The position numbers and the translations under genes were made by a program. Below, in pieces: positions 5,433-30,686 of a stretch of 36,547 bases of DNA. The notes under the pieces were generated by a model. That model was not told the origin of the DNA, searched no databases, and worked only from the letters and a program-made list of their open reading frames with translations. Location of the stretch: positions 1 to 36,547 of the forward strand of contig CAMWWJ010000002.1 of assembly GCA_947177925.1 (NCBI GenBank). The letters are read 5' to 3'. The stretch comes from an uncultured Lachnospiraceae bacterium (lineage in GTDB: Bacteria > Bacillota > Clostridia > Lachnospirales > Lachnospiraceae). How positions within the stretch are numbered: the first letter of the stretch is position 1; each line of letters begins with the position of its first letter.

Positions 5433-5464
5433 GCGGCAGGGAAGCCGCATGAAATTCAAGGAGG
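5433..5464 (+). promoter_or_regulatory. Candidate CsrA-binding hairpin plus SD site in the flagellin 1 leader
   Basis: GCGGC-AGGGAA-GCCGC hairpin with GGA in a 6-nt loop, then AAGGAGG Shine-Dalgarno; same layout as the B. subtilis hag leader. Confidence 0.5.
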
Positions 5465-5472
5465 AATATATT

Positions 5473-6288
5473 ATGGTAGTACAACACAATCTTAGAGCAA
5501 TGAACTCAAACAGAATGTTAGGATTAACAGCATCATCTCAGTCTAAGTCAACAGAGAAATTATCTTCTGGTTATAAGATCAACCGTGCAGCAGACGATGC
5601 AGCAGGATTAGCAATTTCCGAGAAGATGAGACGTCAGATCAGAGGACTTACACAGGCTACTGCAAATGCACAGGATGGTATTTCCATGGTGCAGACAGCA
5701 GAAGGTGCGTTAAACGAAGTTCACGACATGTTACAACGTATGAATGAGCTTGCTGTAAAGGCAGCTACAGGTACAGAGCAGTCTGAAGACCGTTCTTACA
5801 TCAACCAGGAAGTAACTGCATTAAAGGCAGAAATCGACAGAGTTGCAGCAACAACTACTTTCAATGAGTTGAACTTATTGAATCAGACAACTACTTTCAG
5901 TCTTCAGGTTGGTTCTGAAAGCGCTTCTGTAAACCAGATTGATGTAACGGTTGCAGCTATGAACACAACTGGACTTAGCATTAACGGTACAACAGTAGAT
6001 ACTGTAGCCAATGCAAAAACTGCTATTGATTCAGTTAAGAAGGCAATCACAGCATTGAATAAGCAACGTTCCGATCTTGGTGCACAGCAGAACCGTTTAG
6101 AGCATACAGTAAACAACTTGAACAACGTTGTTGAAAACACCACATCAGCAGAATCTGCTATTCGTGATACAGATATGGCAACTGAAATGGTTAGATATGC
6201 AAACAACAACATTCTTGCACAGGCAGGTCAGGCAATGTTGGCACAGTCTAATCAGGCTAACCAGGGCGTATTATCCTTACTTCAGTAA
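5473..6288 (+). CDS. Flagellin, copy 1
   Basis: MVVQHNLRAMNSNRMLGLTASSQSKSTEKLSSGYKINRAADDAAGLAISEKMRRQIRGL and C-terminal MVRYANNNILAQAGQAMLAQSNQANQGVLSLLQ; SD AAGGAGG upstream of the ATG at 5473. Confidence 0.98.
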   Translation: MVVQHNLRAMNSNRMLGLTASSQSKSTEKLSSGYKINRAADDAAGLAISEKMRRQIRGLTQATANAQDGISMVQTAEGALNEVHDMLQRMNELAVKAATGTEQSEDRSYINQEVTALKAEIDRVAATTTFNELNLLNQTTTFSLQVGSESASVNQIDVTVAAMNTTGLSINGTTVDTVANAKTAIDSVKKAITALNKQRSDLGAQQNRLEHTVNNLNNVVENTTSAESAIRDTDMATEMVRYANNNILAQAGQAMLAQSNQANQGVLSLLQ

Positions 6289-6307
6289 TTTATTGCACAA
6301 CTACCAT

Positions 6308-6329
6308 AGGGCTGACATATGTCAGCCCT
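6308..6329 (+). terminator. Flagellin 1 intrinsic terminator
   Basis: Perfect 22-nt palindrome AGGGCTGACATATGTCAGCCCT followed by GTTTTGCGTTTT. Confidence 0.85.
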
Positions 6330-6449
6330 GTTTTGCGTTTTAAAGCCCTGTTGGGATTTTTACGGTAGTGGAATATATGAAAATAGGAATGATATCAGTT
6401 ATACACAATTACGGTTTATAAAAAAATAAAAAAAGTTTTTGTTTTGGTA

Positions 6450-6476
6450 TAAAGTATAAAAAAAACATTCCGATAT
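6450..6476 (+). promoter_or_regulatory. Sigma-28/SigD-type promoter of flagellin copy 2
   Basis: TAAA-N15-TCCGATAT, spacer GTATAAAAAAAACAT. Confidence 0.8.
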
Positions 6477-6567
6477 AATATACAAGTAAAACAACTTACT
6501 TAAACAAACAGTAATCCATTCGGAAGAAGCGTACGGTCGGAAGAAAGGATTACAGAAAAACAAGAAA

Positions 6568-6599
6568 GCGGCAGGGAAGCCGCATGAAATTCAAGGAGG
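6568..6599 (+). promoter_or_regulatory. Candidate CsrA-binding hairpin plus SD site in the flagellin 2 leader
   Basis: Same sequence as 5433-5464 at a constant offset of 1135 nt. Confidence 0.5.
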
Positions 6600-6607
6600 A
6601 ATATATT

Positions 6608-7423
6608 ATGGTAGTACAACACAATCTTAGAGCAATGAACTCAAACAGAATGTTAGGATTAACAGCATCATCTCAGTCTAAGTCAACAGAGAAATTATCT
6701 TCTGGTTATAAGATCAACCGTGCAGCAGACGATGCAGCAGGATTAGCAATTTCCGAGAAGATGAGACGTCAGATCAGAGGACTTACACAGGCTACTGCAA
6801 ATGCACAGGATGGTATTTCCATGGTGCAGACAGCAGAAGGTGCGTTAAACGAAGTTCACGACATGTTACAACGTATGAATGAGCTTGCTGTAAAGGCAGC
6901 TACAGGTACAGAGCAGTCTGAAGACCGTTCTTACATCAACCAGGAAGTAACTGCATTAAAGGCAGAAATCGACAGAGTTGCAGCAACAACTACTTTCAAT
7001 GAGTTGAACTTATTGAATCAGACAACTACTTTCAGTCTTCAGGTTGGTTCTGAAAGCGCTTCTGTAAACCAGATTGATGTAACGGTTGCAGCTATGAACA
7101 CAACTGGACTTAGCATTAACGGTACAACAGTAGATACTGTAGCCAATGCAAAAACTGCTATTGATTCAGTTAAGAAGGCAATCACAGCATTGAATAAGCA
7201 ACGTTCCGATCTTGGTGCACAGCAGAACCGTTTAGAGCATACAGTAAACAACTTGAACAACGTTGTTGAAAACACCACATCAGCAGAATCTGCTATTCGT
7301 GATACAGATATGGCAACTGAAATGGTTAGATATGCAAACAACAACATTCTTGCACAGGCAGGTCAGGCAATGTTGGCACAGTCTAATCAGGCTAACCAGG
7401 GCGTATTATCCTTACTTCAGTAA
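6608..7423 (+). CDS. Flagellin, copy 2 (protein identical to copy 1)
   Basis: Identical translated sequence in the ORF track; own promoter, leader and terminator. Confidence 0.98.
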   Translation: MVVQHNLRAMNSNRMLGLTASSQSKSTEKLSSGYKINRAADDAAGLAISEKMRRQIRGLTQATANAQDGISMVQTAEGALNEVHDMLQRMNELAVKAATGTEQSEDRSYINQEVTALKAEIDRVAATTTFNELNLLNQTTTFSLQVGSESASVNQIDVTVAAMNTTGLSINGTTVDTVANAKTAIDSVKKAITALNKQRSDLGAQQNRLEHTVNNLNNVVENTTSAESAIRDTDMATEMVRYANNNILAQAGQAMLAQSNQANQGVLSLLQ

Positions 7424-15021: not shown

Positions 15022-15190
15022 GTGGATTCTCCTTTAATTTCATAAATGAACGTATATTTAGTGGCTTTTCATGAAAAGTATTATATAATAGTTTCCCAAA
15101 AAAGAAAAGATGGGATTTTCATGGAAAGCGGTTTGCATATGTGATAAAATGATTTTCAGGGGAATCGTAGAAAAGAAAGTAGACATAAAT

Positions 15191-15217
15191 TAAGGATATT
15201 TTAAAATATGCCGATAT
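15191..15217 (+). promoter_or_regulatory. Sigma-28/SigD-type promoter upstream of the sugar/radical SAM operon
   Basis: TAAG-N15-GCCGATAT; perfect -10 and 3/4 match to the -35 at canonical spacing. Confidence 0.7.
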
Positions 15218-15380: not shown

Positions 15381-16205
15381 ATGTGTTTATTTATTACAGC
15401 AGAAATAGGAATTAATCATAATGGTGATTTAAAAATCGCAAAGGAATTGATCGACCTTGCAGTAGAAGCTGGATGTGATGCTGTGAAGTTTCAAAAAAGA
15501 ACCATTGATAAGGTCTATACGCAGGAGTATCTGGCAGGTGAGAGAATCAGCCCATGGGGAACTACTCAAAGGGAACAGAAGGAAGGACTGGAATTTGGGT
15601 TGAAAGAGTATCAGGAAATTGACAGATATTGTAAAGAAAAAGGAATTGAGTGGTTTGCTTCAGCCTGGGATTTGGATTCGCAGAAATTTCTGCAGCAGTT
15701 TGATTTAAAATATAATAAGGTTGCATCAGCCATGTTGGTAAACGACGAGCTGTTAGAAGAGATTGCCAATGAGAAAAAGTATACCTTCATTGCAACCGGA
15801 ATGAGCACTTATGACGAAATCGATCATGTAGTAGATATTTTTAAAAAATATGATTGCCCCTTTGAACTGATGCATTGTAACAGCACCTACCCTATGAAAG
15901 AAGAAGATGCCAATTTAAAGGTAATGTACCAGTTAAAAGAAAGATACGGCTGTAAGGTCGGTTACAGCGGGCATGAGGAAGGAAACTTAGTCTGCACTTG
16001 CGCAGCGGCAATGGGGGCCACATCCATAGAAAGGCATATCACGTTGGACAAGACCATGTATGGAAGCGATCAGAAAGCATCGATTGAGCCAAGGGAGCTT
16101 AAGGAGCTGGTAAGGACGATCAGGGAAGTAGAAAAGATTCTCGGAACTGGAGAAAAGCTTCTGTCAGAGGCAGAGCAGGAAGTAAAGGCAAAGTTAAGAG
16201 GATAA
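15381..16205 (+). CDS. NeuB/LegI/PseI-family ulosonic acid synthase-like protein lacking the C-terminal SAF/antifreeze region
   Basis: FITAEIGINHNGDLKIAKELIDLAVEAGCDAVKFQKRT; ATGMSTYDEI; MHCNSTYPM; GYSGHEEG; ERHITLDKTMYGSDQKAS; only 274 aa. Confidence 0.88.
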   Translation: MCLFITAEIGINHNGDLKIAKELIDLAVEAGCDAVKFQKRTIDKVYTQEYLAGERISPWGTTQREQKEGLEFGLKEYQEIDRYCKEKGIEWFASAWDLDSQKFLQQFDLKYNKVASAMLVNDELLEEIANEKKYTFIATGMSTYDEIDHVVDIFKKYDCPFELMHCNSTYPMKEEDANLKVMYQLKERYGCKVGYSGHEEGNLVCTCAAAMGATSIERHITLDKTMYGSDQKASIEPRELKELVRTIREVEKILGTGEKLLSEAEQEVKAKLRG

Positions 16206-16208
16206 GAC

Positions 16209-17285
16209 ATGATAAAGCTGGTTATTTTTGATATAGATGGAGTCATAACCGATGGCTCCATTATTGTTGATGTAGCAGGAAGAGAGCAAAAAAAAATAAA
16301 TTTAAAAGATGTGGATGCCATTTTCCAGATAAAAAAGGATGGTTATCGGTTGGCTGCCATAACGGGAGAAGATTCAGAGATTGTAAATTATTTTGAGCAG
16401 AGATTCCCGTGGGATTATTTTTACAGAGGCAATAAGAGTAAGACGGATGCCATGAAAGAAATACAGCAGAAAGAGAATCTTTCAAGCAGGGAAATATGCT
16501 ACGTGGGAGATGGAAAGTATGATATAGCCCCCCTTGCTTATGCAGGGCTTGGAATCTGCCCAAGGGATGCCATTGACAAGGCAAAAGAGGCGGCAGATGT
16601 GATTTTACAAAAGGGTGGTGGACAAGGCTGTCTGTGGGAATTGATTGATATCTTAAAAAGATATAATAATAAAGAGGTTCCAGAAAACTATTTTTACCAA
16701 AGACTAGCTGAGCATACGAATATCTTCAAAGAAATGGGCTCTGATATGGAGCTGATACAAAAGGTAATGGGTCTGGCAGAAGATATTTATAACATTCTTC
16801 GAAACGGAGGAAGGCTGTTTTTATGTGGAAATGGAGGAAGTGCAGCAGATGCTCAGCATATTGCCACAGAGTTCATCAGCCGCTTCTTTCATGAGCGGCC
16901 CGCATTGAATGCAGAGGCGCTGACGGTAAATACATCTACCTTGACTGCAATCGGCAATGATTATAGCTATGAACGGATTTTTGTGAGGCAATTGGAAGCA
17001 AAAGCGCAGAAGGGCGATGTGCTGATTGGGATTTCCACCAGTGGGAAATCCAAGAATGTGATGGAAGCATTAAAATATGGAAGAGATCATGGAATGAAGA
17101 CTGCTATGTGGATGGGAAATTTTGATTCTGCACAGGTGAAAGAATTTTGTGATTATGTTATAAGAGTACCTTCTGATATTACCCCAAGGATACAGGAAGC
17201 CCATATTTTTATTGGACATACTCTGGCGGAATTTGTGGAACAGAAGGTTGTTTTGGAGGAAAATCGGGATGGTAAAAGTATCTGA
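16209..17285 (+). CDS. Fusion protein: KdsC/YrbI-like HAD phosphatase + GmhA-like SIS isomerase
   Basis: N-term FDIDGVITDGSIIVD...ITGEDSEIV...CYVGDGKYDIAPLAYAGLGICPRDA; C-term LFLCGNGGSAADAQHIATEFISRF...GISTSGKSKNVMEAL. Confidence 0.88.
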   Translation: MIKLVIFDIDGVITDGSIIVDVAGREQKKINLKDVDAIFQIKKDGYRLAAITGEDSEIVNYFEQRFPWDYFYRGNKSKTDAMKEIQQKENLSSREICYVGDGKYDIAPLAYAGLGICPRDAIDKAKEAADVILQKGGGQGCLWELIDILKRYNNKEVPENYFYQRLAEHTNIFKEMGSDMELIQKVMGLAEDIYNILRNGGRLFLCGNGGSAADAQHIATEFISRFFHERPALNAEALTVNTSTLTAIGNDYSYERIFVRQLEAKAQKGDVLIGISTSGKSKNVMEALKYGRDHGMKTAMWMGNFDSAQVKEFCDYVIRVPSDITPRIQEAHIFIGHTLAEFVEQKVVLEENRDGKSI

Positions 17286-19017
17286 TTATGTCATGGAGTT
17301 TCTAAAGGAAAAGGGGATAAAGGAAATCTTTATGCTGCCGGGTGGCGGCGCTATGCATCTGCTTGACTCTTTGGGAAAATCTGGCATTGAGTATATTTGT
17401 TTTCAACATGAACAGGGAGCTGCCATTGCGGCAGAAGCCTATGGGCAGCATACAAATGAACCGGGGTGTCTTTTGGTCACATCTGGTCCGGGCGCCACAA
17501 ATGCCATAACAGGTGTTACTGCAGGCTGGATCGATTCCACACCGATGTTTGTTATATCAGGGCAATCCAAAAGGGCGGATTTAGTGGGAGACAAGCAGGT
17601 TAGGCAGATTGGCTCGCAAGAAGTTCAGATAATTGATATGGTAAAACCCATTACCAAATATGCAGTGCAGATTATGGAACCGGCAGAGATTCGATATCAT
17701 TTGGAAAGAGCCTATTATGAATGTACTAACGGACGTCCGGGACCTGTATGGCTTTCCATTCCTTTAGATGTACAGGGAGCCATCATTGATGAAGTGAATC
17801 TGAAGGGATTTTTACCAGAGGAAGTCAGAAAAAGCTGTATTTCCAATGATGTTTTGAAGGTAGTGGATTTGTTAAAGGACGCAAAAGCGCCTCTGTTTAT
17901 AGCAGGGAACGGTATTAAGCTTTCTGGAGCAACGGAAATATTCTATCAGCTTTTAGAACAAATAAACGTGCCGGTTTTAACTACGTGGAAGACCATTGAC
18001 ATGTTTGCTGAGGATAATCCGGTTTATGTAGGACATCCGGGCATTATGGGCGATCGAGGAGCAAATAAAATTTTACAGAAAGCCGATTTGCTGATTTCGT
18101 TAGGAAGTCGGTTAGATACCAGCATTACTGCATTTAATGATGCACTTTTTGGAAAGAATGCGAAAAAAGTAATTGTAGATATAGATGTACACGAAATAAA
18201 CCGGATGCAAATGAAAAAGGAAGTGGAAATCGTTTCGGATGCAGGGGAGTTTCTAGCTTGTCTGACAGAGGTCATTGGGAAAGAAAGCTTACCGGACTGG
18301 AATGAATGGCTTACTTCTTGTAAGGAGCTTAGGGCTGGCTATCCACTTGTTACGGATAAGCACAGAGATACAGGAGATTATGTAAGCGCTTATTATTTTA
18401 TTGATGAACTTTGTAAGGTGCTTAGGGCAGATGATGTAATTGTACCGGAAAGCTCCGGTGGAGCAGGAGAAATTACTTATCAGGCATTTCAGATAAAAAA
18501 AGGACAGAAGATGAAAAATGCAGCAGGATTGGGATCTATGGGTTTTGGTCTGCCTTATTCCATTGGTTCCTGTATTGCCAATGACAAAAGGAGAACTGTT
18601 TTAATCAATGGAGATGGTGCGTTTACCTTAAATATTCAGGAATTAGAGACTATGCATCGATTAAAGCTGCCAATTAAGATGTTTATCTTAAGCAACGGCG
18701 GATATGCCAGCATAAGAAGCATGCAGCGGGGAAATTTTGAAGGCAGATATGTGGCGAGCAGTGAGGACAGCGGATTTACGATTCCGGATATCAGTGCAGT
18801 GGCAAAGGCTTATGGCTTTCAAACCTGTTCCATGAAAAGTAATGAAGAAATGCTTCAAATGCTGCCTAAGATTATGGCAGATGATGAGCCGTTGCTTTGT
18901 GAAGTGTTTGTTTCACCGGATGAAACGGTTTGGCCGAGAGTAAAGGCTGTAGTTCTGCCGGACGGGGGCATGAAGTCGGGAGAGCTGGAGAATATGTGGC
19001 CTTATGAAGAAGAATAA
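17269..19017 (+). CDS. Thiamine-pyrophosphate-dependent enzyme, acetolactate synthase-like
   Basis: ATG at 17269 with TTGGAGGAAAA upstream; FQHEQGAAIAAEAYG, LVTSGPGATNAITGV, NGDGAFTLNIQELETMHRLKLPIKMFILSNGGYASIR (TPP motif). Confidence 0.9.
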   Translation: MVKVSDYVMEFLKEKGIKEIFMLPGGGAMHLLDSLGKSGIEYICFQHEQGAAIAAEAYGQHTNEPGCLLVTSGPGATNAITGVTAGWIDSTPMFVISGQSKRADLVGDKQVRQIGSQEVQIIDMVKPITKYAVQIMEPAEIRYHLERAYYECTNGRPGPVWLSIPLDVQGAIIDEVNLKGFLPEEVRKSCISNDVLKVVDLLKDAKAPLFIAGNGIKLSGATEIFYQLLEQINVPVLTTWKTIDMFAEDNPVYVGHPGIMGDRGANKILQKADLLISLGSRLDTSITAFNDALFGKNAKKVIVDIDVHEINRMQMKKEVEIVSDAGEFLACLTEVIGKESLPDWNEWLTSCKELRAGYPLVTDKHRDTGDYVSAYYFIDELCKVLRADDVIVPESSGGAGEITYQAFQIKKGQKMKNAAGLGSMGFGLPYSIGSCIANDKRRTVLINGDGAFTLNIQELETMHRLKLPIKMFILSNGGYASIRSMQRGNFEGRYVASSEDSGFTIPDISAVAKAYGFQTCSMKSNEEMLQMLPKIMADDEPLLCEVFVSPDETVWPRVKAVVLPDGGMKSGELENMWPYEEE

Positions 19018-19030
19018 AAGGAGAAGGAAG

Positions 19031-20113
19031 ATGAAGGCAGATGTACATGGAAGCTGTGTCAGTTTTAGCATATTAAAGAAAGAGACGGAAGAGGGATGTC
19101 AGATTAAGTTAGAATGTTTAGATAATAATTTTTTCTTTTCCCATATTAACATTGCAGGTTCCATGGGAAATAGAATTGATGTAGAGCCTACAGAAGAGGA
19201 GTTATCTGTTTTTGAGGAGCACTTGAGAAGAAATTTGATAACAGATTTAAATAAAACGGTGGTTGAAGAATTATTGCTATCAGATGCAGAGTATCTGCTG
19301 GTAGACTTTTATGATTTTGCCAGAGTGCAATGGGCATACAGGGGAGGCAGCTTTACCCATACCGTTTTCTTAAACGAAGCAAAAGACTATTATCAAAAGG
19401 TCCAGGATCAGATGGAAGGACTGTTTCGCTGGATTAATCTTCCCACGTTTCTTTATTATGATAAGGTAGACGAATACTTCCGGATTATGGTAGAAAAATA
19501 TGGAAAAGAACATATTATTCTGAATCGTATATATTTTAACAGATATTATATAGACGAGAATCATACCTTAAAAGAGATTAGGAAGAATATTGACTGGGTA
19601 GGCAGTTATAGGGACAACGATGTAATACGCAGATTAGAGGAGCATGTGATAAAGAAGTTTGGAATTAAAAGCATAGATGTTTCTAAATATTTTGTTGCAG
19701 ATTACAATTTTGGAAAGGATATTCTGGCTGTGCATTATGAGGAGGAATACTATCATTTGGCAGGAAGGATTATATCCAAACTTATTTTAGGGGAACCGGT
19801 GGCTACAGATAAGCTGGATTTGGAAAGCTTTAAAGCAAAATTAGATTGGAATCAGCAGATTTTAGCAGGAGAATCGAAAGGATATTTGTCCTGTACCCAA
19901 TCAGTTTTTCACTTATATGAGCCATTAGATATGCTGTTGTCAGTACTGGAAAATGATGAAATTAATTCTTGTAAAGATGTAATTATTCGCTTGTATGAAT
20001 GGGTTTTTGAAGAACCGGAATATTTTTACAATCATGAAATTCCTGTAGAAGTTATTCAAAATAGACTTTTGGATAAATTTGACAGTTGGATTGCGGAAAA
20101 AAGTAAAAGCTAA
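19031..20113 (+). CDS. DUF6270-like protein
   Basis: ATG at 19031 with GGAGAAGGAAG upstream; N-terminal DVHGSCVSFSI resembles the GSCVSRD motif of DUF6270. Confidence 0.6.
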   Translation: MKADVHGSCVSFSILKKETEEGCQIKLECLDNNFFFSHINIAGSMGNRIDVEPTEEELSVFEEHLRRNLITDLNKTVVEELLLSDAEYLLVDFYDFARVQWAYRGGSFTHTVFLNEAKDYYQKVQDQMEGLFRWINLPTFLYYDKVDEYFRIMVEKYGKEHIILNRIYFNRYYIDENHTLKEIRKNIDWVGSYRDNDVIRRLEEHVIKKFGIKSIDVSKYFVADYNFGKDILAVHYEEEYYHLAGRIISKLILGEPVATDKLDLESFKAKLDWNQQILAGESKGYLSCTQSVFHLYEPLDMLLSVLENDEINSCKDVIIRLYEWVFEEPEYFYNHEIPVEVIQNRLLDKFDSWIAEKSKS

Positions 20114-20134
20114 CAGAAAAGGAATGCAAAGTCA

Positions 20135-21265
20135 ATGAGAAATGTTGATTCTAAAAACGAAACAGTTATTTTGTATGGGGCAGGTACCCAGAATCTTAGA
20201 ATGGCTTTTCAACCAATTACCTCTGCCGGATTTAAAGTCACGGCTATTGTGGATAAAGATGAAAAGAAACAGGGAACCTTGTTTTATGGCATTAGGATTA
20301 TAGCGCCCGAACAATTGCAGAAGTATGAAGAAAAACGGGAAAAATATCGAATTATTATAACCATACGTACGGAAGAAACAGTTTTGGAAGTGAAGAATGA
20401 GCTTTCCAGATTAAAGTATGCAGAGATTTATTCGTTCCATGAATTCATTGAATCAGAAAAGTTGAACGGCAAGGTAAAAAGATTTGCCTGTATCATGTTC
20501 CATTTGGTTGACCATTGCAATATGAGCTGTGTCCGTTGTTCTCATTTTTCACCCTTAGCGCCTAGAGATGGTTTCTATTTAGAGGAAGGGGTATTTGAAC
20601 GGGACTGCAAAAGATTGTCAGAATTAACAAAAGGAGATATAGACGAGATACAGCTATCAGGAGGAGAGCCTACGCTGCATCCAAAGGTTCATATCTTCCC
20701 ATATATTGTCAGGAAATATTTTCCGATGACGAAAATTATCATGATTACAAATGCAACGAGGATTCAGGATATGCAGGATGAATTTTTTCAGTCTTGTAGA
20801 GAGAATGATGTGGAATTATGGATATCCAAGTATCCGATAAAATTGGATTATAATAGCATTTTCCACAGCTTAAGGTCTAAAGGAATATCAGTTACATTTG
20901 GCAATACCGGCAACTCGGAAGACAAGCCAAAAGAAATGTGGGGGCTTCCTATGAGGTTGGAAGGCGGAATGGATAAACAGCACAATTTTGACTGCTGCCT
21001 TTGCATGCAGTATATTGTAAGAGATGGAATCATATACCCATGTGCGAATAGCGCATATATTGATTTATTTAATAATTATTTTCAAAAAGAGCTTCCCGGC
21101 CCTAAAGTAAATGGTGTAGATATTTATAAGGTAAATGATTTGGAGGAATTGACTGAAAAGATATCACAGGCTATACCTTTATGTGAATTTTGCGATGCAC
21201 AAAACCGTCTGCCGGGCATTCCATGGCGTGTATCCCAAAAAGAGATCAGCGAATGGATTATATAG
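20135..21265 (+). CDS. Radical SAM protein with N-terminal Rossmann-like module
   Basis: N-term VILYGAGTQNLRMA...VTAIVDKDEKKQGTLFYGIRIIAPEQL; CNMSCVRC (CxxxCxxC), QLSGGEPTLHP; C-terminal Cys cluster CCLCMQYI..IYPCANSA. Confidence 0.87.
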   Translation: MRNVDSKNETVILYGAGTQNLRMAFQPITSAGFKVTAIVDKDEKKQGTLFYGIRIIAPEQLQKYEEKREKYRIIITIRTEETVLEVKNELSRLKYAEIYSFHEFIESEKLNGKVKRFACIMFHLVDHCNMSCVRCSHFSPLAPRDGFYLEEGVFERDCKRLSELTKGDIDEIQLSGGEPTLHPKVHIFPYIVRKYFPMTKIIMITNATRIQDMQDEFFQSCRENDVELWISKYPIKLDYNSIFHSLRSKGISVTFGNTGNSEDKPKEMWGLPMRLEGGMDKQHNFDCCLCMQYIVRDGIIYPCANSAYIDLFNNYFQKELPGPKVNGVDIYKVNDLEELTEKISQAIPLCEFCDAQNRLPGIPWRVSQKEISEWII

Positions 21266-21288
21266 CAAATGAAGGGAGAAGCAGGAAC

Positions 21289-22437
21289 GTGAAGAGTTAT
21301 AAAAAAGGACATGAACTGGATGAATTGGCAAAGATTTGGCTGGATGACGATAATATTTTTTATGTATGGGGAGCAGCAATAGCAGGTACAAAATTTTTGC
21401 AGCAATATAAAGATGAAATTTGTATCAGGAAAGTTTTTGACAGTGATCCGGAAAAGCAAGGTAAAATGTTAGAGGACAGGGAGATTGTCCGGTTTGATCA
21501 AAATTGTATGGAGCCGGGCTCCAAGATTATTGTATGTACGAATTTTTACAGGGAAGTAAAGCAGGAATTGTTGCGGTATGGATTCAAGGAAAATATTGAT
21601 TTTATAGAGAGAAAGAAGTTTAAGGGCATAAGGTATTATTATAATGAAAATAAGGTCTATTTATATAGAGTTGACTTATCAGTTACGAATAAATGTACAT
21701 TGCGTTGTGAAAAATGTAATATGCTGATGCCATATTTTCATGCACCTCAGCATAAGAGCCTGGAAACGATAAAACAAGATCTGGATATGCTTTTTCGTTG
21801 GGTAGATGTAGTGGAACTTTTCGATATTTTAGGTGGGGAGCCATTGCTTTATCCTGATTTGGTGGAACTATTGCAATATATAAAAGAACACTATCAGGAA
21901 AAAATCGAAGCGATACATATGTTTACAAATGGCACATGTAATTTGAGTGAAGAGTTATTAAGAATCTCAAGAGAGATGTCAATTATTTACGATATAAGTG
22001 ATTATACTCAGGAGTTGCCACAGTTGACAGAACGAGTGGATGAATTTGAAAGTAAGTTGCAGGAGCATAAAATAGTAGCCAACAGGGATAAGCAGAAAAT
22101 TTGGTTGGATTTTGGTTATCCAGAGGTAAATCATGAAGACTATCCGGAAGAAAAGAGAATAGCCCATTTTCACGGCTGTGAGGCTACTTTTAGAGGACTG
22201 TATGACAAGAAGTTGTATTATTGCCATTTAGAAGCTAGTGCGGTGCAGGCAGGACTTTTTGAAGAAAGTGAAGATGACTTTGTGGAGTTGGACAAGTTAA
22301 GCGAAGAGAATAAGATTGAAGTGGTTGAGCTGGATCAGGGATATAGCCAAAAAGGTTATCCGGGTTTTTGTTTAAGATGCGACGGCTGTGGAAGCAAAAA
22401 GAGAATACCAGTGGCGAAGCAGAAGGGAAAAGGATGA
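21289..22437 (+). CDS. Radical SAM protein with N-terminal Rossmann-like module
   Basis: FYVWGAAIAGTKFLQQY...VFDSDPEKQGKMLEDREIV; CTLRCEKC, ILGGEPLLYPD; likely GTG start at 21289 (upstream GGGAGAAGCAGG), alternative ATG at 21253. Confidence 0.82.
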   Translation: MKSYKKGHELDELAKIWLDDDNIFYVWGAAIAGTKFLQQYKDEICIRKVFDSDPEKQGKMLEDREIVRFDQNCMEPGSKIIVCTNFYREVKQELLRYGFKENIDFIERKKFKGIRYYYNENKVYLYRVDLSVTNKCTLRCEKCNMLMPYFHAPQHKSLETIKQDLDMLFRWVDVVELFDILGGEPLLYPDLVELLQYIKEHYQEKIEAIHMFTNGTCNLSEELLRISREMSIIYDISDYTQELPQLTERVDEFESKLQEHKIVANRDKQKIWLDFGYPEVNHEDYPEEKRIAHFHGCEATFRGLYDKKLYYCHLEASAVQAGLFEESEDDFVELDKLSEENKIEVVELDQGYSQKGYPGFCLRCDGCGSKKRIPVAKQKGKG

Positions 22438-23876
22438 TGACAGAAAGCGAATATATCGTTGATACCTTTCAAAAGGCTTTTGGGAAAGACCGTTCTAAAC
22501 GGATATGTCTTTATGGAACAGGAAGATTTACAAAACTGCTGTTAGAGAGGCTTGAGGGTTTTCATATTGTGGGAGTGGCAGATTTTGGGTATGAAAAAAA
22601 TACGTGGGAGGGTTATCGGATTCTCTCAAAAGAAGATTTGGAAGAATGGATCGATATCCTTGTACTGATTGCGAATCCGGCAAATATACATTTAGTCTAT
22701 AAAAAGGTTAAGCAGCTTCCTGAGAAAATTAAAATCTATACGATAGAAAAAAGGGATGTCAGAGAGGAAGAGCAGTTTCATGAACAAGCAACATTACAGG
22801 AAGCAGCGGAATGTCTGAAGCAATATGCGATTTCAGAAGAAGACAAGCTTGTGTTGGAACGTTTTTTAGGAAAACTGTTATATGACACCGGATGTGAAAT
22901 ACATGATGTGTATTCATTTATAAATATTTTTGTAGCCCCATGGCTATTAAGTTATTTTGCGTGGTTCTTAAATAGAGTAAGAGAATCAAAGGCAGAGATA
23001 GTCCTGTTGCCATCTAGAGATGGCTATTTATTTTACAGGTTGTTTGGGCTTTTGCAGGATTGTGAATCGCTTCCGAAAGCAATATATTTTTATACTTCTA
23101 GAAGGTGCATAGCAGTGGCGTCTATTGAAAATGAACAAGATGTAGAAGTAATTGCCGGGCAGTTGTATAAAGGGAACAAAAGAACTTTTTTAGAAGAAAG
23201 ATTTGGCATTAAGGTTTCCTTGAAGGAGGAAGAACTTTTGCTGGACAATGTAGAACTGGCATTGCGTTATAAAGAGAAGATATTGGAAAAAGCCAGAATG
23301 GAACGGGCATGTTTAGAAACATACCTGCTAAAAGAGGGGATTGATAAAAGCAAAAATATATTGTTGTTTGATTTTGTAGGAAGGGGAACAATTCAGTACT
23401 GTTTGGAAAAAATCATGGGAAGATCACTGGATTGTCTGTATTATTTCAGAGTGCGGGATGAGGGCAGTATAGAAAGAGAACGAACAAATGGAGTTATATC
23501 TTACAGTGGGGAAGGAAGCCTCTATATGACAAAATTGTTCACACAGCGCAATCAAGTATTGTTCGAAGCAATTGTTACAGCACCTCATGGAATGGTAGAG
23601 AGAATTGGAAAAGATGGGAATCCTTTTTTCAGAAGAGAAAAAATTGATAAAAGTTATTTTGCTGAAGTAGAAAAAGCATGCATGGATTATTATAAGGAAA
23701 TGTGTTTGGGAAAAATATTACCGGAAGAAATAAATTTGGAACTGGTAGACCGAATGGTAGAACTGATTGAATACGATTGTATTTTCATTGATGAAAAGGT
23801 AAAGAGGTATTTTACAGTAGATGATCCCTATCAGAACATGCATACAAATCCATTTATGGAAGGGTTCATAAAGTAA
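22437..23876 (+). CDS. Rossmann-like module + uncharacterised 'SRDGY' domain protein
   Basis: ICLYGTGRFTKLLLERL...; LPSRDGYLFYRLFGLLQDC..YTSRRCIAVASI; LLFDFVGRGTIQYCLEK shared with the C-terminal half of 33524..35656. Confidence 0.65.
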   Translation: MTESEYIVDTFQKAFGKDRSKRICLYGTGRFTKLLLERLEGFHIVGVADFGYEKNTWEGYRILSKEDLEEWIDILVLIANPANIHLVYKKVKQLPEKIKIYTIEKRDVREEEQFHEQATLQEAAECLKQYAISEEDKLVLERFLGKLLYDTGCEIHDVYSFINIFVAPWLLSYFAWFLNRVRESKAEIVLLPSRDGYLFYRLFGLLQDCESLPKAIYFYTSRRCIAVASIENEQDVEVIAGQLYKGNKRTFLEERFGIKVSLKEEELLLDNVELALRYKEKILEKARMERACLETYLLKEGIDKSKNILLFDFVGRGTIQYCLEKIMGRSLDCLYYFRVRDEGSIERERTNGVISYSGEGSLYMTKLFTQRNQVLFEAIVTAPHGMVERIGKDGNPFFRREKIDKSYFAEVEKACMDYYKEMCLGKILPEEINLELVDRMVELIEYDCIFIDEKVKRYFTVDDPYQNMHTNPFMEGFIK

Positions 23877-23922
23877 GTACTATTGGATGGAAATAAATGC
23901 CAGGAGCAGAAAGGAAAAGAAA

Positions 23923-25035
23923 ATGGATAGTAAAAGCTTGGAGAAGGTTAAAGTGAGGACCTTGGAAGATGTATACAATTTTTCTTCCATTGTTTTATGG
24001 GGAGCTGGTTTTGCGTATGAGGATACTATTGAGCTAATTGGGAGAGGAAAAATAACTGCAGTTTTTGATAATGATCAAGAGAAGTGGGGAAAGACAATAT
24101 GTGGATTTCCTATTAAGTCTCCTGTGACAGATTTAAAAAAATATGTTACGAGGGATACAGCAGTTATTATTTCAACAAACGGATATCAATATGAGATTGC
24201 AACAGATTTAACAACGAATAAGGGAATCATGGAAAACCAGATTTTTTGTAATTCTAATAAGGTGGTAGAGAAATGGAGATATCGTCCGGAAATTATTTTA
24301 GGACATATGGAGCAGATTCAAAAAGTGTATGATAAATTAGCAGATAAGGAATCAAGAGAATATTATATTAGTTTTTTGAAAGCATGTCTGACAAGAAATC
24401 CATTTTTTTATAAGGATAATCCGAGATGCGTAAATAATTATGAATATAAAACGGAGCTTGCAAATCTGGGTCTGCATGGAGGAGAAGTTATTTTAGATTG
24501 TGGCGCATTCAATGGTGATACTGCAAGACTGTTCAGGAAAATTACAAATAACAATTGCGAAGTATATTGTTTTGAGCCAGTAACAGAAAACTATAATGAA
24601 ATGGTAGAATGGATCAAGAATGAACATATTGAAAAGGTTCATGCTATACATGTGGGAGTTGGTAAGGAAAAGTATGTAGATAAGGTTTATTCTACAGAAG
24701 AAAAAACAACAAAAGGAGCAGTGGGAACAAATCGGTTCAACAGCAATAGCCCGGTAGTCAGTGAAATACAGGTGGATTCCCTGGATAATATGCTGGGGGA
24801 AAAGAAAGTGGACTACATAAAAATGGATATTGAAGGAGCCGAAATGGAGGCATTAAGAGGCGGGACAAAAGTAATCGAAAGGAATCGCCCTCAGATGCTT
24901 ATTAGTGCATATCATAAGATTTCAGATATGTGGGAAGTTCCTGGATTTGTACTGGATCTTCATCCGGATTATCAAGTCTTTTTGGGGCATCAACCGCATG
25001 CGCCATATGAACCCGAATTTTTATTTATTTCATAG
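23923..25035 (+). CDS. FkbM family methyltransferase with N-terminal Rossmann-like module
   Basis: IVLWGAGFAYEDTIELI..AVFDNDQEKWGKTICGFPI; VILDCGAFNGDTARLFRKI...YCFEPV...VDYIKMDIEGAEMEALRGG. Confidence 0.85.
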   Translation: MDSKSLEKVKVRTLEDVYNFSSIVLWGAGFAYEDTIELIGRGKITAVFDNDQEKWGKTICGFPIKSPVTDLKKYVTRDTAVIISTNGYQYEIATDLTTNKGIMENQIFCNSNKVVEKWRYRPEIILGHMEQIQKVYDKLADKESREYYISFLKACLTRNPFFYKDNPRCVNNYEYKTELANLGLHGGEVILDCGAFNGDTARLFRKITNNNCEVYCFEPVTENYNEMVEWIKNEHIEKVHAIHVGVGKEKYVDKVYSTEEKTTKGAVGTNRFNSNSPVVSEIQVDSLDNMLGEKKVDYIKMDIEGAEMEALRGGTKVIERNRPQMLISAYHKISDMWEVPGFVLDLHPDYQVFLGHQPHAPYEPEFLFIS

Positions 25036-25058
25036 AATAGTTGAAAGGATAAAACGAT

Positions 25059-26564
25059 ATGACGGATAATCAGAATAATCCATTGGTAAGTGTAATAATG
25101 CCTTGCTATAATCATGAAAGATATGTGGGGCAATCTATTGAAAGTGTATTAAATCAAACATATGATAATATTGAATTTATTGTTCTGGACAATGGTTCTT
25201 CAGATCATTCTTATGATGTAATTAAAAAGTATGAAAGTCAAATAGATCAGATACTGCAATTTGACAAGAATGATATCAATCAGGCAGGTAGGGTGTTGTT
25301 AGAGCATTGTACGGGAAATTATATAGCCTTTATGACATCGGATGATATTTGGGAAAAAGAAAAAATAGAAAAGCAAATGAGCGTTCTGAAAAGCAATAAA
25401 AAGGTAAAGGCATGCTTTACATGGGTGAACATGGTTGATGAAAACATGAATATAATAGGTCAGGAAGGGGGCAATATATTCAGGCAGGCTAACAGGAGCC
25501 GCTATGAATGGATAAAAAGATTAGTGCTACAAGGCAACTGTTTGGCATTTCCGTCGGCAATAGTTGAGAAAGAGGCTTATTATGCTGCATTTGAAAGAAT
25601 AAAGCCGTTTTACCAGCTGGGTGATTTATTTATGTGGATACAAATGCTTATGGAAAATGATATATATATTGTTGAGGAACCACTGATAAGCTTTCGGTGG
25701 CATGCAAGAGGGGAGAATCAAAATACTAGTTCGCCAAACCAAAAGGTTGACATTAGAACAAGAAACGAGCAGGCTGTTATATTAGAAGCGGTAGTGGAAA
25801 ATATGGATGATGAAATATTTATCCATACCTTTGGTGACTATTTTAGAAATAAGAATGCCTGCTCAAAAGAGGAACTGCTTTGTGAGAAATTTTTTCTGTT
25901 GACTAAATTGGCAGAGAAGGCACCCTGCTATGGGCAATGTGCTATAAACTATTATTTCAGGCACAATAATTATAGTGTGGATAGCGGTTATAGCCTGATA
26001 AATATGCTGGATTCTCTTTATAATTATACGTATCTGGATTTTCAGGAGTATTGTGCAGGAGCAGGTATGAGCGCAATGGATTTTAAGATTCAGTACTTGG
26101 CAGAACAACAAAATTTATATTTAGATCGACAGAATTTGTATTTAGCTGTGATATGCTCATTACAAGAGGCAATGGATACAGATTTCAACAAAGAGCAAAG
26201 AACATTTTTCTATAGGCAGAGAGTCTATCAACGACTTCAGGATGGGCAGAAAAAGATTTTGGAAGTCGTGGCAGATTATTTAAGAGGAGTATTGACATTT
26301 ATTGAAAATGCCAATGATGATATATTAGAGAAAGAATATGGAAGTTTTATTCATAATGTGCAGGAGACGAAGGTTATCCTGCAGGAGTTGTGGAATATGC
26401 TTTTGCAGTTTGATTCTGATATAAATGAAGAAGAATGGAACAGATGTAAGGAAATATTGCAAAGGCAGCAGATAGAGGTTGAAGAATTCTGTGACCTGAT
26501 ACTACCGTTTTTAGTACGTCTGTATAATGTATTGCTTCAATATCTGCCACAACAGTCTGGATAA
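25059..26564 (+). CDS. Glycosyltransferase family 2 with long helical C-terminal extension
   Basis: PLVSVIMPCYNHERYVGQSIESVLNQTYDNIEFIVLDNGSSD...FMTSDDIW. Confidence 0.88.
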   Translation: MTDNQNNPLVSVIMPCYNHERYVGQSIESVLNQTYDNIEFIVLDNGSSDHSYDVIKKYESQIDQILQFDKNDINQAGRVLLEHCTGNYIAFMTSDDIWEKEKIEKQMSVLKSNKKVKACFTWVNMVDENMNIIGQEGGNIFRQANRSRYEWIKRLVLQGNCLAFPSAIVEKEAYYAAFERIKPFYQLGDLFMWIQMLMENDIYIVEEPLISFRWHARGENQNTSSPNQKVDIRTRNEQAVILEAVVENMDDEIFIHTFGDYFRNKNACSKEELLCEKFFLLTKLAEKAPCYGQCAINYYFRHNNYSVDSGYSLINMLDSLYNYTYLDFQEYCAGAGMSAMDFKIQYLAEQQNLYLDRQNLYLAVICSLQEAMDTDFNKEQRTFFYRQRVYQRLQDGQKKILEVVADYLRGVLTFIENANDDILEKEYGSFIHNVQETKVILQELWNMLLQFDSDINEEEWNRCKEILQRQQIEVEEFCDLILPFLVRLYNVLLQYLPQQSG

Positions 26565-26579
26565 TTGGAGTTGAATGAT

Positions 26580-27608
26580 ATGAAAGATGAAATGTGGATA
26601 ACAACCTGGAGCTATGCACAGCGCAGGACAAGTTTTACAAGATGGGAAAATCAAGATTCGTTTCAGATAGATATCCCCAATAATATTTGGGGACATGCAA
26701 TAAAATTAAAATTCAGTAACTGGTATGGAACCCGAAGTATAGGGATTCAGGAGGTAAATTTCTCACTGAAAGGGCATACATATTCCGTATTTGTAAAGGA
26801 ACAACAGGAATTTCAGGTAATGCCCACAAGGGATATTTATTCAGATACTGTTTTTGTAGAACTGGTTCCGGGAGATATTATCCGGATCAGTGTTACCTTT
26901 GTGAACCAGCTTCGGCCGGAATCGGGGAATACGTTTCAAAACGGCATTGCTATGATTTTTCAATCGGTGTTAGTAGCCACCAGCAATAAAGCGGATGTAA
27001 TTGCATTTTTTGGAGACAGTATTACCCATAGACAGAAATGGTCTAAGCCCCTTATCCATAATTGGTATGCAAAGTATCCTGGTAGGCTTGCAGCTTTTGA
27101 AGTTGCAGTGGATGGCTCGAGACTGCTAAATGATTCCCCTAAGGCGGATGATGAAACCTTGGGGTTTCGGGCAGCAAAGCGGTTTCAACATGATATTCTG
27201 GAAAATACAGGAATCAATTATGTGGTATTTGCTTTGGGATTAAATGATCTTGCAATTGAAGAAGGTAAGCATGAGCTAACTCTAAAATCTTATGCAAATG
27301 CGGTTGAGGAAATAGTGGAAGCAGCTCATAAGAAGGACATAAAGGTAATTGGACTAACTATAACTCCAAGACAAATAAATGAATTTTATACAAGTGAAAA
27401 AAATCATTTGAGAAAGGCAATTAATCAGTGGATATTGCAGAATTCCCCTTTTGATGCTGCAGTGGATATAGCTGCGTTAGTCACTAATGAGAATGATACT
27501 GCATTAAAAACGGAATATTCGGATATAGATGGCGTTCATATAAGTCAGGAGGCAGGCAGGGTTATTGCGGAAGCATTAGAAAAGGAAAAGATTTTCGAAT
27601 GGTGTTAA
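26580..27608 (+). CDS. SGNH/GDSL-type hydrolase (candidate carbohydrate esterase)
   Basis: IAFFGDSITHR (block I), ALGLNDLA (block III), DGVHIS (block V). Confidence 0.85.
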   Translation: MKDEMWITTWSYAQRRTSFTRWENQDSFQIDIPNNIWGHAIKLKFSNWYGTRSIGIQEVNFSLKGHTYSVFVKEQQEFQVMPTRDIYSDTVFVELVPGDIIRISVTFVNQLRPESGNTFQNGIAMIFQSVLVATSNKADVIAFFGDSITHRQKWSKPLIHNWYAKYPGRLAAFEVAVDGSRLLNDSPKADDETLGFRAAKRFQHDILENTGINYVVFALGLNDLAIEEGKHELTLKSYANAVEEIVEAAHKKDIKVIGLTITPRQINEFYTSEKNHLRKAINQWILQNSPFDAAVDIAALVTNENDTALKTEYSDIDGVHISQEAGRVIAEALEKEKIFEWC

Positions 27609-27625
27609 CGAAGGGGTGTGGATTC

Positions 27626-28798
27626 ATGGTGTATAGAGATCGTGCAGAACAAGTTATTAAAGAGCAATATGAAAATGGCTTCAGGTTTTATGAAACGGAA
27701 GGAATGAAAAGGTACTTCCAACAGAAGAGAGAGGAGCATAAATATTTCTGCATCTTTGGAGGCGGGGTATTAGGTACGACCTTATGTAACTGGTTAAAAA
27801 AGCATAAAATACAGGTAGACTTTTTTTGTGATAATAATCAGGATAAAATTGACATGATGATTTCAGGAGTGCCATTTATTGATTTTTCAAGTCTTCTTGC
27901 TTTAAAGGATGAAACATTTGTTATGGTATCGGCAACTAATAAGGGAGCAAGACGATGCTATAACAGAGATATTAACCAGCAGTTAAGTGAATTCCCCTAT
28001 GTCATGCCAAATGTTTTGAAATTTATAGCATATTATACAAATGATTACAAGTTATCGTACCGGGAGTGTTTAGACAGTGCGGGCAGGATTATGGAGGCTT
28101 TAGGAGATGAGCATTCCAGAGCTCTTTTTTTGGAATTGTTGAAATTGAAATTTGTTGATAATCCATCTCCGCTTGCGGATAATCCTCTGGAAAAATTTTA
28201 TGAGCCTGTCCAGTATTTTAATTCTGACTATTATAAGCATGTGGAAAATGCGGTTATAGTGGATTGTGGTGCTTATAATGGAGATTCTTTAAAAGAATTT
28301 GTTCAACTGTTTGGGGATGATTTTGAAAGATATCATTGTTTTGAAATGGATTGTGCTGCTTATTCGGAGTTGGAAAAGAATTGTGCACAATTAACGCCTA
28401 ACCTTCAAAATAAAATTGTATTATATCCGTTTGGGGTGTTTTCTGAAAAAGGGATTGCTTATTATAATGCTTTAACAGATACTTTAGGCTCTTCTATTAG
28501 CACTGATGGAAAGAAACAAGCTCAATTGGCAGTTTTGGATCAGATATTGGAGAATGAAAGAGTTACTATGATAAAAATGGATATTGAAGATTCAGAGCTT
28601 CCGGCACTTATGGGTGCAAAAAGGCTGATTGAAAAGAATCACCCTATTCTTGCAATTAGTATTTATCATTCAACGGAACAATTTTTTAAAATTCCTATCC
28701 ATATATTAGATAACTTTCCGTTTTATAAACTGTATCTGGGGTTACATACTACGATAACGGATGATACTGTACTATATGCTATTCCGGAACAGGAATAG
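27626..28798 (+). CDS. FkbM family methyltransferase with N-terminal Rossmann-like module
   Basis: FCIFGGGVLGTTLCNWLKKHKIQVDFFCDNNQDKIDMMISGVPFIDF; VIVDCGAYNGDSLKEFVQLF; MIKMDIEDSELPALMGA; RBS AAGGGG upstream of the ATG at 27626. Confidence 0.83.
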   Translation: MVYRDRAEQVIKEQYENGFRFYETEGMKRYFQQKREEHKYFCIFGGGVLGTTLCNWLKKHKIQVDFFCDNNQDKIDMMISGVPFIDFSSLLALKDETFVMVSATNKGARRCYNRDINQQLSEFPYVMPNVLKFIAYYTNDYKLSYRECLDSAGRIMEALGDEHSRALFLELLKLKFVDNPSPLADNPLEKFYEPVQYFNSDYYKHVENAVIVDCGAYNGDSLKEFVQLFGDDFERYHCFEMDCAAYSELEKNCAQLTPNLQNKIVLYPFGVFSEKGIAYYNALTDTLGSSISTDGKKQAQLAVLDQILENERVTMIKMDIEDSELPALMGAKRLIEKNHPILAISIYHSTEQFFKIPIHILDNFPFYKLYLGLHTTITDDTVLYAIPEQE

Positions 28799-28839
28799 CA
28801 GAAAGACTTATGAAAAACTAGATGAAAGGAGAAACTTCC

Positions 28840-29844
28840 ATGGTAAATAGAGATAGACTTGAGTTTTCAAATGCAAGAACGGATTTAGGAAAGGCAGTAC
28901 CATTATCCACACCATTTGTGGTGTTTCTGGATCCTTGTGGCGCCTGCAATTTTTCATGTAAATTCTGTCCCTGCAATCATAGCGATTTTATGTCCTTGGA
29001 ACGTCATGAAAAGATGAGCATGCAAATATTCGAAAAAGTTTTAGATGATTTAGCGGAATTTTCGGAGCAGATCAAGGTAATTAATTTGTATGGATTTGGA
29101 GAGCCGCTTTTACATCCTCAATATATAGAGATGGTAAAACGAATTAAGGAAAGGAATCTGTGCCGTGAAGTAAGATGTACTACTAACGGATTTTTGCTTA
29201 CACCTAAATTAAATCAACAGCTTGTTTCGGCTGGAATCGATATGGTCAGGATTTCAGTTGAAGCATTGACAGAGCAGGATTATAAGGAAATTTGTGGCAT
29301 AAATATAGATTTAAAAAAGTTTATTAGCAATATTAAAAATCTATATGAGGTAAGCAGGGGAACAAATACAAAGGTGTCTGTAAAGACCTTGAATGTTGCT
29401 TTGGCAGATGATGCAGCTGCTAATCAATTTTATGATATTTTTGAGCCGATTTCTGATTATAGCTATATTCAGGATACTACACAGGCATGGTCTGAATTTG
29501 ATGCATATGTGCCGGAAGGAAATTATGAGGCGGGAAATATTGGTGATATGAAAGATGAGGATAAAATCTGCTCTTTTGCACTTACTAATATGGCAATTCA
29601 TTCCAATGGAAGTGTGGGAGTATGTCCTCAGGATTGGAAATTTGCAACTGAATATGGAAATGTCCGGGATAATTCACTGAAGGATTTGTGGAATTCCAAT
29701 AAACTGAAAGGATTTAGAATTGCACATTTAAGCGGTAACAGAAGAAAAATTCCATATTGCAGGGATTGTGACGTTTGTGTATCCAATGATGATGTTAGGA
29801 AATGTGCCGATCAAATTATACAGAGGCTACAAGAGGGAAAATAA
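28840..29844 (+). CDS. Radical SAM/SPASM-like protein
   Basis: CNFSCKFCPC (CxxxCxxC), NLYGFGEPLLHPQ; C-terminal NGSVGVCPQDWKFATEYGNVRDNSLKDLWNS...CRDCDVC; RBS AAGGAG. Confidence 0.9.
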   Translation: MVNRDRLEFSNARTDLGKAVPLSTPFVVFLDPCGACNFSCKFCPCNHSDFMSLERHEKMSMQIFEKVLDDLAEFSEQIKVINLYGFGEPLLHPQYIEMVKRIKERNLCREVRCTTNGFLLTPKLNQQLVSAGIDMVRISVEALTEQDYKEICGINIDLKKFISNIKNLYEVSRGTNTKVSVKTLNVALADDAAANQFYDIFEPISDYSYIQDTTQAWSEFDAYVPEGNYEAGNIGDMKDEDKICSFALTNMAIHSNGSVGVCPQDWKFATEYGNVRDNSLKDLWNSNKLKGFRIAHLSGNRRKIPYCRDCDVCVSNDDVRKCADQIIQRLQEGK

Positions 29845-30686
29845 TGACAGTAGTTGAAACGATAGAAAAAGTAATCAGTGAACAGTTAGCGCTGGGAAAC
29901 CGGAAATTTATAATTTATCCATACGGAATTGCAGGCTATGCGGTAAGGCGGGTTTTACAAGAAAGGTTTGGAATAGAGCCACTATGCGTTATTGATGATT
30001 ATAAGTGCGGAACTTTGGATTTTATAAAAAATACGAAATATTTATATACTCTGAATAAATCAGGAATAACTATACTGGTAGCAACAAAAAATCCAAAGGT
30101 TCTTATGGAAATACAGGAAATTCTTATGCCGTATCAGGAGCTTAATATTGTTGATGTATTTCCTATGAAAGTTGGAAAGCATACAATAGGAAATAGCATT
30201 CTTGCAAATAATACGGGATATTCCATAGAAAAGATAGGTGCTTATTGCAGCTTTGCAGATGGTTGTAGTGTAGTAGGAAATCATAATTTGAAGGGGGTTT
30301 CTACTTTTGCTCTGTTTCAGGGATTTGATATGGAGGATATTCCCGTTTTCCGGGATAAGGTTAAAAATATTCCCATATCAAATCTGATTAATGGAGAACG
30401 TTGCAGCATTGGAAATGATGTATGGCTGGGAAAGAATGTTACTATTTGCAATGGAGCAAAAATAGGCGATGGAGCAATTGCAGCAGCGGGAGCAGTGATT
30501 ACAAGGGATGTTCCCTGTTATGCAATTGTAGGGGGTGTTCCAGCAAAAGTGCTTAAGTACCGTTACAGTCAGGAACAAATAGAAATGTTGAACAAAATCA
30601 AATGGTGGGAGTGGCCGGATGAAAAGGTAGCAGAGAATTTTGATGATTTTGCAAATATTGAGCGCTTTCTGGAAAAGCATTTTTAA
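29844..30686 (+). CDS. Left-handed beta-helix acyltransferase (CatB/Vat-like hexapeptide repeats) with N-terminal Rossmann-like module
   Basis: N-term FIIYPYGIAGYAVRRVL...CVIDDYKCG; C-term SIGNDVWLGKNVTICNGAKIGDGAIAAAGAVITRDVPCYAIVGGVPAKVLKYRYS; TAATG overlap with the upstream CDS. Confidence 0.85.
   Translation: MTVVETIEKVISEQLALGNRKFIIYPYGIAGYAVRRVLQERFGIEPLCVIDDYKCGTLDFIKNTKYLYTLNKSGITILVATKNPKVLMEIQEILMPYQELNIVDVFPMKVGKHTIGNSILANNTGYSIEKIGAYCSFADGCSVVGNHNLKGVSTFALFQGFDMEDIPVFRDKVKNIPISNLINGERCSIGNDVWLGKNVTICNGAKIGDGAIAAAGAVITRDVPCYAIVGGVPAKVLKYRYSQEQIEMLNKIKWWEWPDEKVAENFDDFANIERFLEKHF

Follow-up and report, generated by a model that had tools for sequence, protein, structure and literature searches.

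A SAF-less NeuB-like synthase, a phosphatase-isomerase fusion and a YerE-like carboligase in a Lachnospiraceae flagellar locus: a putative route to branched higher-carbon sugars

We analyzed a 36,547-nucleotide stretch of DNA from an uncultured Lachnospiraceae bacterium (assembly GCA_947177925.1, here genome G000). This stretch, the window, is an entire contig (CAMWWJ010000002.1, here C2). An earlier note, made from the sequence alone, had singled out three adjacent genes as an unusual ulosonic-acid-like set: a NeuB-like synthase, an isomerase-phosphatase fusion and an enzyme dependent on thiamine diphosphate (ThDP). All three open reading frames were recovered at the positions it gave, and their domains were confirmed (Table 1). 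From the first of these genes to the window end, gaps between genes range only from -76 to +33 bp, so this part of the window is probably a single operon. We refer to its first three genes as the cassette.

Table 1. Features of the window, cassette first (L numbers in the text denote loci, C numbers contigs of G000)
Feature	Position	Strand	Basis or remark
SAF-less NeuB-like synthase condensing phosphoenolpyruvate (PEP); predicted 3-deoxy-2-ulosonate(-phosphate) synthase	15381..16205	+	PF03102 4.6e-75; operon's first gene
KdsC/YrbI-type HAD phosphatase (residues 2-154) fused to GmhA-type SIS sugar-phosphate isomerase (residues 181-348)	16209..17285	+	TIGR01670 1.4e-30, TIGR00441 2.5e-52
YerE-like ThDP-dependent carboligase; predicted C-C coupling of ulosonate-derived chain to CDP-keto sugar	17269..19017	+	PF02776/PF00205/PF02775
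Remaining operon, glycan assembly/decoration genes	19004..35656	+	Pfam; genes overlapping or closely spaced
Four radical-SAM proteins within it	20135-22437, 28822-29844, 32158-33522
NAD-dependent epimerase/dehydratase, cut at window end; candidate branched-sugar reductase/epimerase	35690..36547	+	PF01370 2e-27
Tentative SigD(FliA)-like promoter, TTAA-N16-GCCGATAT	15190..15217	+	163 bp upstream of NeuB gene
FliD	481-2538		upstream of flagellins
FliS	2540-2917		upstream of flagellins
Two flagellin genes, likely glycan acceptor locus	5449..7423 (5449-6288, 6584-7423)	+	FliD, FliS upstream
Five DUF3880/CgeB-like glycosyltransferases	4050-5276, 7485-8657, 9152-10309, 10325-11488, 11499-12653		flank flagellins

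The match of the synthase to the NeuB profile covers positions 1–241 of 241, with nothing after it, and the protein has the family's TIM barrel with its PEP and Mn ligands. Residues E25, K53, K129, S132, H215, H236 and D247 of Neisseria meningitidis NeuB are conserved; E134 is changed to Met and S154 mostly to Ala, and T110 and N184 are conservatively substituted. As the earlier note had claimed, the protein stops at residue 274 without a SAF domain, the part of NeuB that supplies substrate-binding residues from the partner subunit. This end is genuine: orthologues share a -KLR(G) C-terminus at the linker, from which full-length NeuBs in the alignment extend ∼55 residues through SAF, and truncation or frameshift was ruled out because more than 20 orthologues end identically. 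The gene for the fusion begins 3 bp past the stop. An AlphaFold model gave a complete TIM barrel (pLDDT 93.5), whose best Foldseek match in the PDB was 6ncs (TM 0.88), a 285-residue SAF-less chain from Leptospira; the synthases of 3-deoxy-D-manno-octulosonate (KDO) 8-phosphate and 3-deoxy-D-arabino-heptulosonate 7-phosphate ranked below it. Scores were under the NeuB and PseI equivalog cut-offs (TIGR03569, 268.6 vs 399.65; TIGR03586, 188.7 vs 340.25), which together with the missing SAF rules out an ordinary sialic or pseudaminic acid synthase; the actual PseI of this genome is encoded elsewhere. A second SAF-less NeuB was noted in the same genome (C60, L042:10972-11850, 293 aa, 46% identical), adjoining UDP-glucose dehydrogenase-like and RmlA/RmlB-like genes, an arrangement repeated in L069–L071.

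The second gene is indeed an isomerase-phosphatase fusion, with the HAD domain preceding the SIS domain in a single reading frame and the motifs DIDGV, GNGGS, STSG and QEAH intact. Its PDB matches were to GmhA (3.3e-49) and to the HAD entry 3e81 (8.6e-20). The SIS domain aligns to GmhA (2x3y/2xbl) and retains the catalytic Glu and His, whose roles we take to be those in GmhA, but it scores under the GmhA equivalog cut-off (TIGR00441, 177 vs 209.45). The HAD domain has the DxDG motif and reaches 106.3 bits against a cut-off of 106.95 (TIGR01670); against the phosphatase model for 2-keto-3-deoxynonulosonate (KDN) 9-phosphate it scores 94.7 bits, below the curated cut-off. The earlier note had likened the set to KdsD-KdsA-KdsC of KDO synthesis. 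The parallel is apt as logic, and extends to the KDN-9-phosphate pathway: an isomerase, a PEP condensation on a phosphosugar and a phosphatase. The parts differ, in that the isomerase is GmhA-like rather than KdsD-like and is fused to the phosphatase, the synthase is NeuB-type, no CMP-transferase is present, and a ThDP enzyme follows.

That ThDP enzyme, whose ATG overlaps the fusion gene by 17 bp, has all three domains of its superfamily. Its nearest solved relative is JanthE (8rph, 349 bits; the best chain of acetohydroxyacid synthase type reached 259), a YerE-like enzyme that couples keto acids to ketones (PMC12188165). The YerE-like class was represented in this comparison by JanthE, together with a tree; on it the enzyme falls on the JanthE side, closer to YerE-like enzymes than to acetolactate synthase. 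Acetolactate synthase proper was rejected, its curated cut-offs lying far above the scores obtained and JanthE being the closer relative. JanthE residues V121, Y268 and P293, important for catalysis (PMC12188165), align with S116, M260 and S285 here. The enzyme is predicted from its sequence to couple a 2-keto acid to a ketone sugar. Action on keto acids and YerE-type branching had been offered as alternatives; they fit best as one step, with a keto acid as donor and a CDP-keto sugar as acceptor. A plasmid search with the protein returned no matches.

Genes for such an acceptor lie just beyond the window. The contig of a sister genome (G200, L066), 98.7% identical across the last 9.6 kb, continues past the window end with the counterpart of the cut epimerase/dehydratase adjoining RfbF, followed by RfbH and RfbG. 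The window's own genome carries RfbF, RfbH and RfbG on a 3.5-kb contig (C337), RfbG and RfbH scoring well above curated cut-offs. No exact overlap was found between the window end and C337, whose first ∼30 bases differ, so their continuity is inferred from the gene order of the sister contig. RfbF, RfbG and RfbH together produce CDP-4-keto-3,6-dideoxyglucose. This compound is a known YerE acceptor (PMC12247030), and linkage to genes for a CDP-3,6-dideoxy-4-keto-hexose again places the ThDP enzyme with the YerE-like class. The earlier guess at a novel higher-carbon or branched sugar is supported, with predicted chemistry; the CDP-glucose branch, which lies outside the window, recurs near the cassette. 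An RfbF-like gene with a degenerate GGxGTR signature (e.g. GGLPSTL, GGMQSTI) was seen in L013, L014, L018, L019, L021, L025 and L029, adjoining a normal RfbF except in L029; it possibly encodes a non-catalytic paralogue.

We favor, with moderate confidence, a pathway to a branched higher-carbon sugar: the cassette would make a 3-deoxy-2-keto acid, and the ThDP enzyme would join its chain to a CDP-keto sugar. The SIS domain would isomerize a ketose phosphate (perhaps sedoheptulose-7-phosphate, by similarity to GmhA) to an aldose phosphate, which the SAF-less NeuB would condense with PEP into a 3-deoxy-2-ulosonate phosphate, and the HAD domain would strip the phosphate. The ThDP enzyme would decarboxylate the resulting 4-hydroxy-2-oxo acid and add the acyl anion to the 4-keto group of CDP-4-keto-3,6-dideoxyglucose, supplied by the RfbF, RfbG and RfbH encoded at the operon end. 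This would give a CDP-sugar carrying a long polyhydroxylated C-branch, which the products of other operon genes would reduce, methylate and decorate further for use on flagellin. Should the SIS domain truly yield heptose-7-phosphate, a nine-carbon branch and a fifteen-carbon sugar would follow; no part of the pathway is less certain. Four lines point to the ulosonate as donor: the synthase, isomerase and ThDP genes are near-constantly linked even as parts are replaced (see below); the acceptor pathway is in the same operon; ErwE offers a precedent; and every NeuB product is a 4-hydroxy-2-oxo acid. On CDP-4-keto-3,6-dideoxyglucose, ErwE shows a preference for 4-hydroxy-2-oxo acids of more than four carbons and takes no pyruvate (PMC12247030).

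The gene-neighborhood survey that the earlier note had proposed bore out the linkage. A search of genome contigs with the ThDP protein as query yielded 29 loci, most of them from Lachnospiraceae and relatives, with Olsenella and two Lentisphaeria as well; two more from a family sample brought the total to 31. Of these, 28 had both a NeuB and a HAD gene no more than 5 kb from the ThDP gene, the three often directly after RfbF/G/H. Cassette gene order was kept in more than 20 genomes, far beyond chance. Among cultured carriers are Parablautia intestinalis, Eubacterium plexicaudatum ASF492 and [Clostridium] aminophilum. RfbH was present in 27 of 29 cassette genomes vs 69 of 200 sampled family members (Fisher p about 1e-9). 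The full HAD-SIS fusion, queried in family and class samples, occurred only with the NeuB and ThDP genes. The HAD of the Lentisphaeria loci carries no SIS fusion, and in Olsenella a ThDP enzyme 60% identical to ours has other neighbors, namely a different short NeuB (38%) and HAD (26%).

The ThDP homologue was also found in 78 of 388 genomes of the phylum that contains the Lentisphaeria genome, and 40 loci of this second phylum were read for operon type. They were mainly of three types, each with RfbF-G-H: the first with a short NeuB, ThDP and HAD; the second with a fusion of NeuB, SAF and a cupin resembling lyxose isomerase, then ThDP and a methyltransferase; and the third with ThDP but no adjacent NeuB. 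Pfam confirmed the NeuB-SAF-cupin fusion. About half of the loci with the fusion also have a small HAD-like gene, before ThDP, whose protein gave only a sub-threshold NT5C match. Fusions of ∼510 aa were seen in L123–L136, most with a ThDP neighbor, and at L025:1037-2560. An isomerase has thus come to accompany NeuB twice, SIS in one lineage and cupin in another; isomerase, NeuB and ThDP recur together even though the isomerases are not homologous.

Operon type also followed the ThDP tree. The three type labels require 4 changes on it, vs a shuffled mean of 24.6, in a count where L146, labeled short, actually has a full-length NeuB three genes off. ThDP enzymes of the short-NeuB and NeuB-cupin types group together (SH-aLRT 97), with JanthE and the NeuB-less type outside this clade, and the NeuB-cupin type is monophyletic (SH-aLRT 95); deep splits are provisional, this being a quick tree with long branches. 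Within the second phylum, NeuB is near ThDP in 26 of 27 loci of the NeuB-linked clade, the 27th being at a contig edge, and is immediately adjacent in 0 of 12 loci of the other clade. At JanthE positions 121/268/293 the residues are S-M-S with a short NeuB, I-(V/I)-C with NeuB-cupin and D-L-R without NeuB. Judged from sequence, these pocket differences match expectation for different donors, although common descent alone could suffice.

Several observations weigh against the proposed pathway. Shared ancestry confounds the pocket tracking, each clade amounting to roughly a single origin. In the first survey, the fetched flank contained one or more of RfbF/G/H in just 18 of the 31 loci, in part because contigs end. 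Three loci sister to the window (L012, L013, L015) retain the ThDP enzyme without the cassette NeuB and HAD-SIS, their sole NeuB being another short one far away; this clade has lost both genes together and kept the ThDP enzyme. The donor pocket in all three is unchanged and so does not settle the donor. A short NeuB-HAD pair without a ThDP enzyme occurs on an Azospirillum plasmid, and in Nonomuraea gerenzanensis a single frame (L076:6633-8822) runs from a NeuA-like domain through a KdsC-like HAD to a short NeuB, so the product of such pairs may have other fates. On a Methylomagnum plasmid (L077:4847-9852) we noted a short NeuB and a HAD-IIIA gene beside a split transketolase, itself a ThDP enzyme of a different class, an aminotransferase and a short-chain dehydrogenase/reductase (SDR).

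These facts lend themselves to two other readings. In one, the operon holds two separate routes, the ThDP enzyme using pyruvate to make a yersiniose-like sugar and NeuB with HAD-SIS contributing to the same glycan a ulosonic acid that has nothing to do with it. Pyruvate is the preferred donor of YerE (PMC12247030), and this reading would suit both the three relatives that keep ThDP enzyme and RfbH but no cassette NeuB or HAD-SIS and the NeuB-HAD pairs lacking ThDP. But NeuB type tracks ThDP clade and pocket across two phyla, the 26 of 27 against 0 of 12 is hard to explain were the routes independent, and the cassette has no NeuA-like activator; we consider separate routes unlikely. In the other, a KDN- or KDO-type route, a CMP-ulosonate would be made and transferred as such, leaving the ThDP enzyme some other role. 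The KDN-9-phosphatase score and the Nonomuraea fusion agree with it. The operon has no CMP-transferase (nor, as the earlier note had said, is NeuA, NeuC, PseB or LegB present in the window), the HAD and NeuB scores fall under curated cut-offs and the ThDP neighbor is near-constant, all of which makes this reading very improbable.

Ordinary pseudaminic acid made elsewhere had been named as a result that would overturn the ulosonic-acid idea. Contigs C223 and C358 (L043, L044) of this genome do carry PseB-, PseF-, PseI- and PseG/H-like genes, named by sequence inspection, so that result has in part been obtained: the pathway is present, but it leaves the additional cassette unexplained. Overall, the earlier interpretation is partly supported. 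The PseI-like gene is split between the two contigs. Pseudaminic acid also enters a third reading, modeled on sfmABCDE of Shewanella oneidensis, which encodes a 290-aa NeuB-domain protein and a 581-aa ThDP enzyme required for flagellin modification; the flagellin glycan there has a 274-Da nonulosonate and a 236-Da outer unit that is unsolved (PMC3765264). By analogy, NeuB and the ThDP enzyme would build a polyhydroxy acyl or outer residue on a pseudaminic acid core, the CDP-keto sugar not being the acceptor. Compared by description, the two systems share a short NeuB-domain protein beside a ThDP enzyme and a part in flagellin glycosylation. The Shewanella locus has no HAD-SIS, with an SDR, a methyltransferase and an ATP-grasp protein instead, and no RfbFGH link is reported for it. 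No counterpart of SfmC or SfmE was seen beside the cassette, and the RfbFGH linkage would go unexplained, so we think this reading quite improbable.

The flagellar setting comes from the rest of the window. The two flagellin genes are ∼300 bp apart and identical at 840 of 840 bases, reflecting recent duplication, gene conversion or an assembly effect. The nearby DUF3880/CgeB-like proteins are candidate flagellin glycosyltransferases. A sister locus (L011) has TAAA-N15-GCCGATAT at the position equivalent to the tentative SigD-like promoter; by itself such a promoter is weak evidence, its -10 element not being rare across the window. Beyond the cassette, Pfam matches in the operon include DUF6270, four radical-SAM proteins, two FkbM methyltransferases, GT2, a GDSL hydrolase, a hexapeptide transferase, a pyruvyl transferase, PglD_N and a HAD-like protein. 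Some of the radical-SAM proteins have an N-terminal Rossmann domain of sugar-acyltransferase type.

Our best reading is that the cassette serves YerE-type branching with a dedicated, NeuB-made donor. With the yersiniose, erwiniose and caryophyllose routes of YerE, ErwE and JanthE it shares the ThDP decarboxylase family, the RfbF-RfbG-RfbH linkage for a CDP-4-keto-3,6-dideoxy acceptor and, through ErwE, acceptance of 4-hydroxy-2-oxo acids. It differs in that the donor is apparently made on site by a NeuB-type synthase, an isomerase and a phosphatase, and in its flagellar setting, theirs being lipopolysaccharide. With NeuB, NANS, PseI and LegI the synthase shares the TIM barrel and catalytic residues, but not SAF or scores above the NeuB and PseI cut-offs. 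In the open-access papers searched, a cited in-silico census of over 200 YerE-like clusters not among them, we found no description combining NeuB, a ThDP carboligase and a CDP-dideoxyhexose route.

Whether this is a general strategy we regard as evenly balanced: in at least three phyla, the dedicated 3-deoxy-2-ulosonic acid made by a NeuB-type synthase would be no end product but would donate the acyl group to a YerE-like ThDP enzyme, and branched sugars of ∼13 to 15 carbons would result on flagella and cell surfaces, the upper figure applying if the NeuB acceptor is a heptose phosphate. A glycolipid of Spirochaeta aurantia is said to contain a branched tetradecose, which would equal C6 plus a decarboxylated C9 nonulosonate. 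The products of sialic-acid-type synthases are assumed to be sugars destined for CMP activation and transfer. In this operon such a synthase seems to provide the carbon chain for a C-C coupling, and the textbook nonulosonate and CDP-dideoxyhexose pathways would merge, leading to branched sugars of very large size. If true, this would show what SAF-less NeuB proteins do, among them 6ncs, a solved structure whose annotation comes only from similarity, give a source for the long hydroxylated donors that some YerE-like enzymes accept, and offer ready enzymes for stereoselective tertiary-alcohol chemistry.

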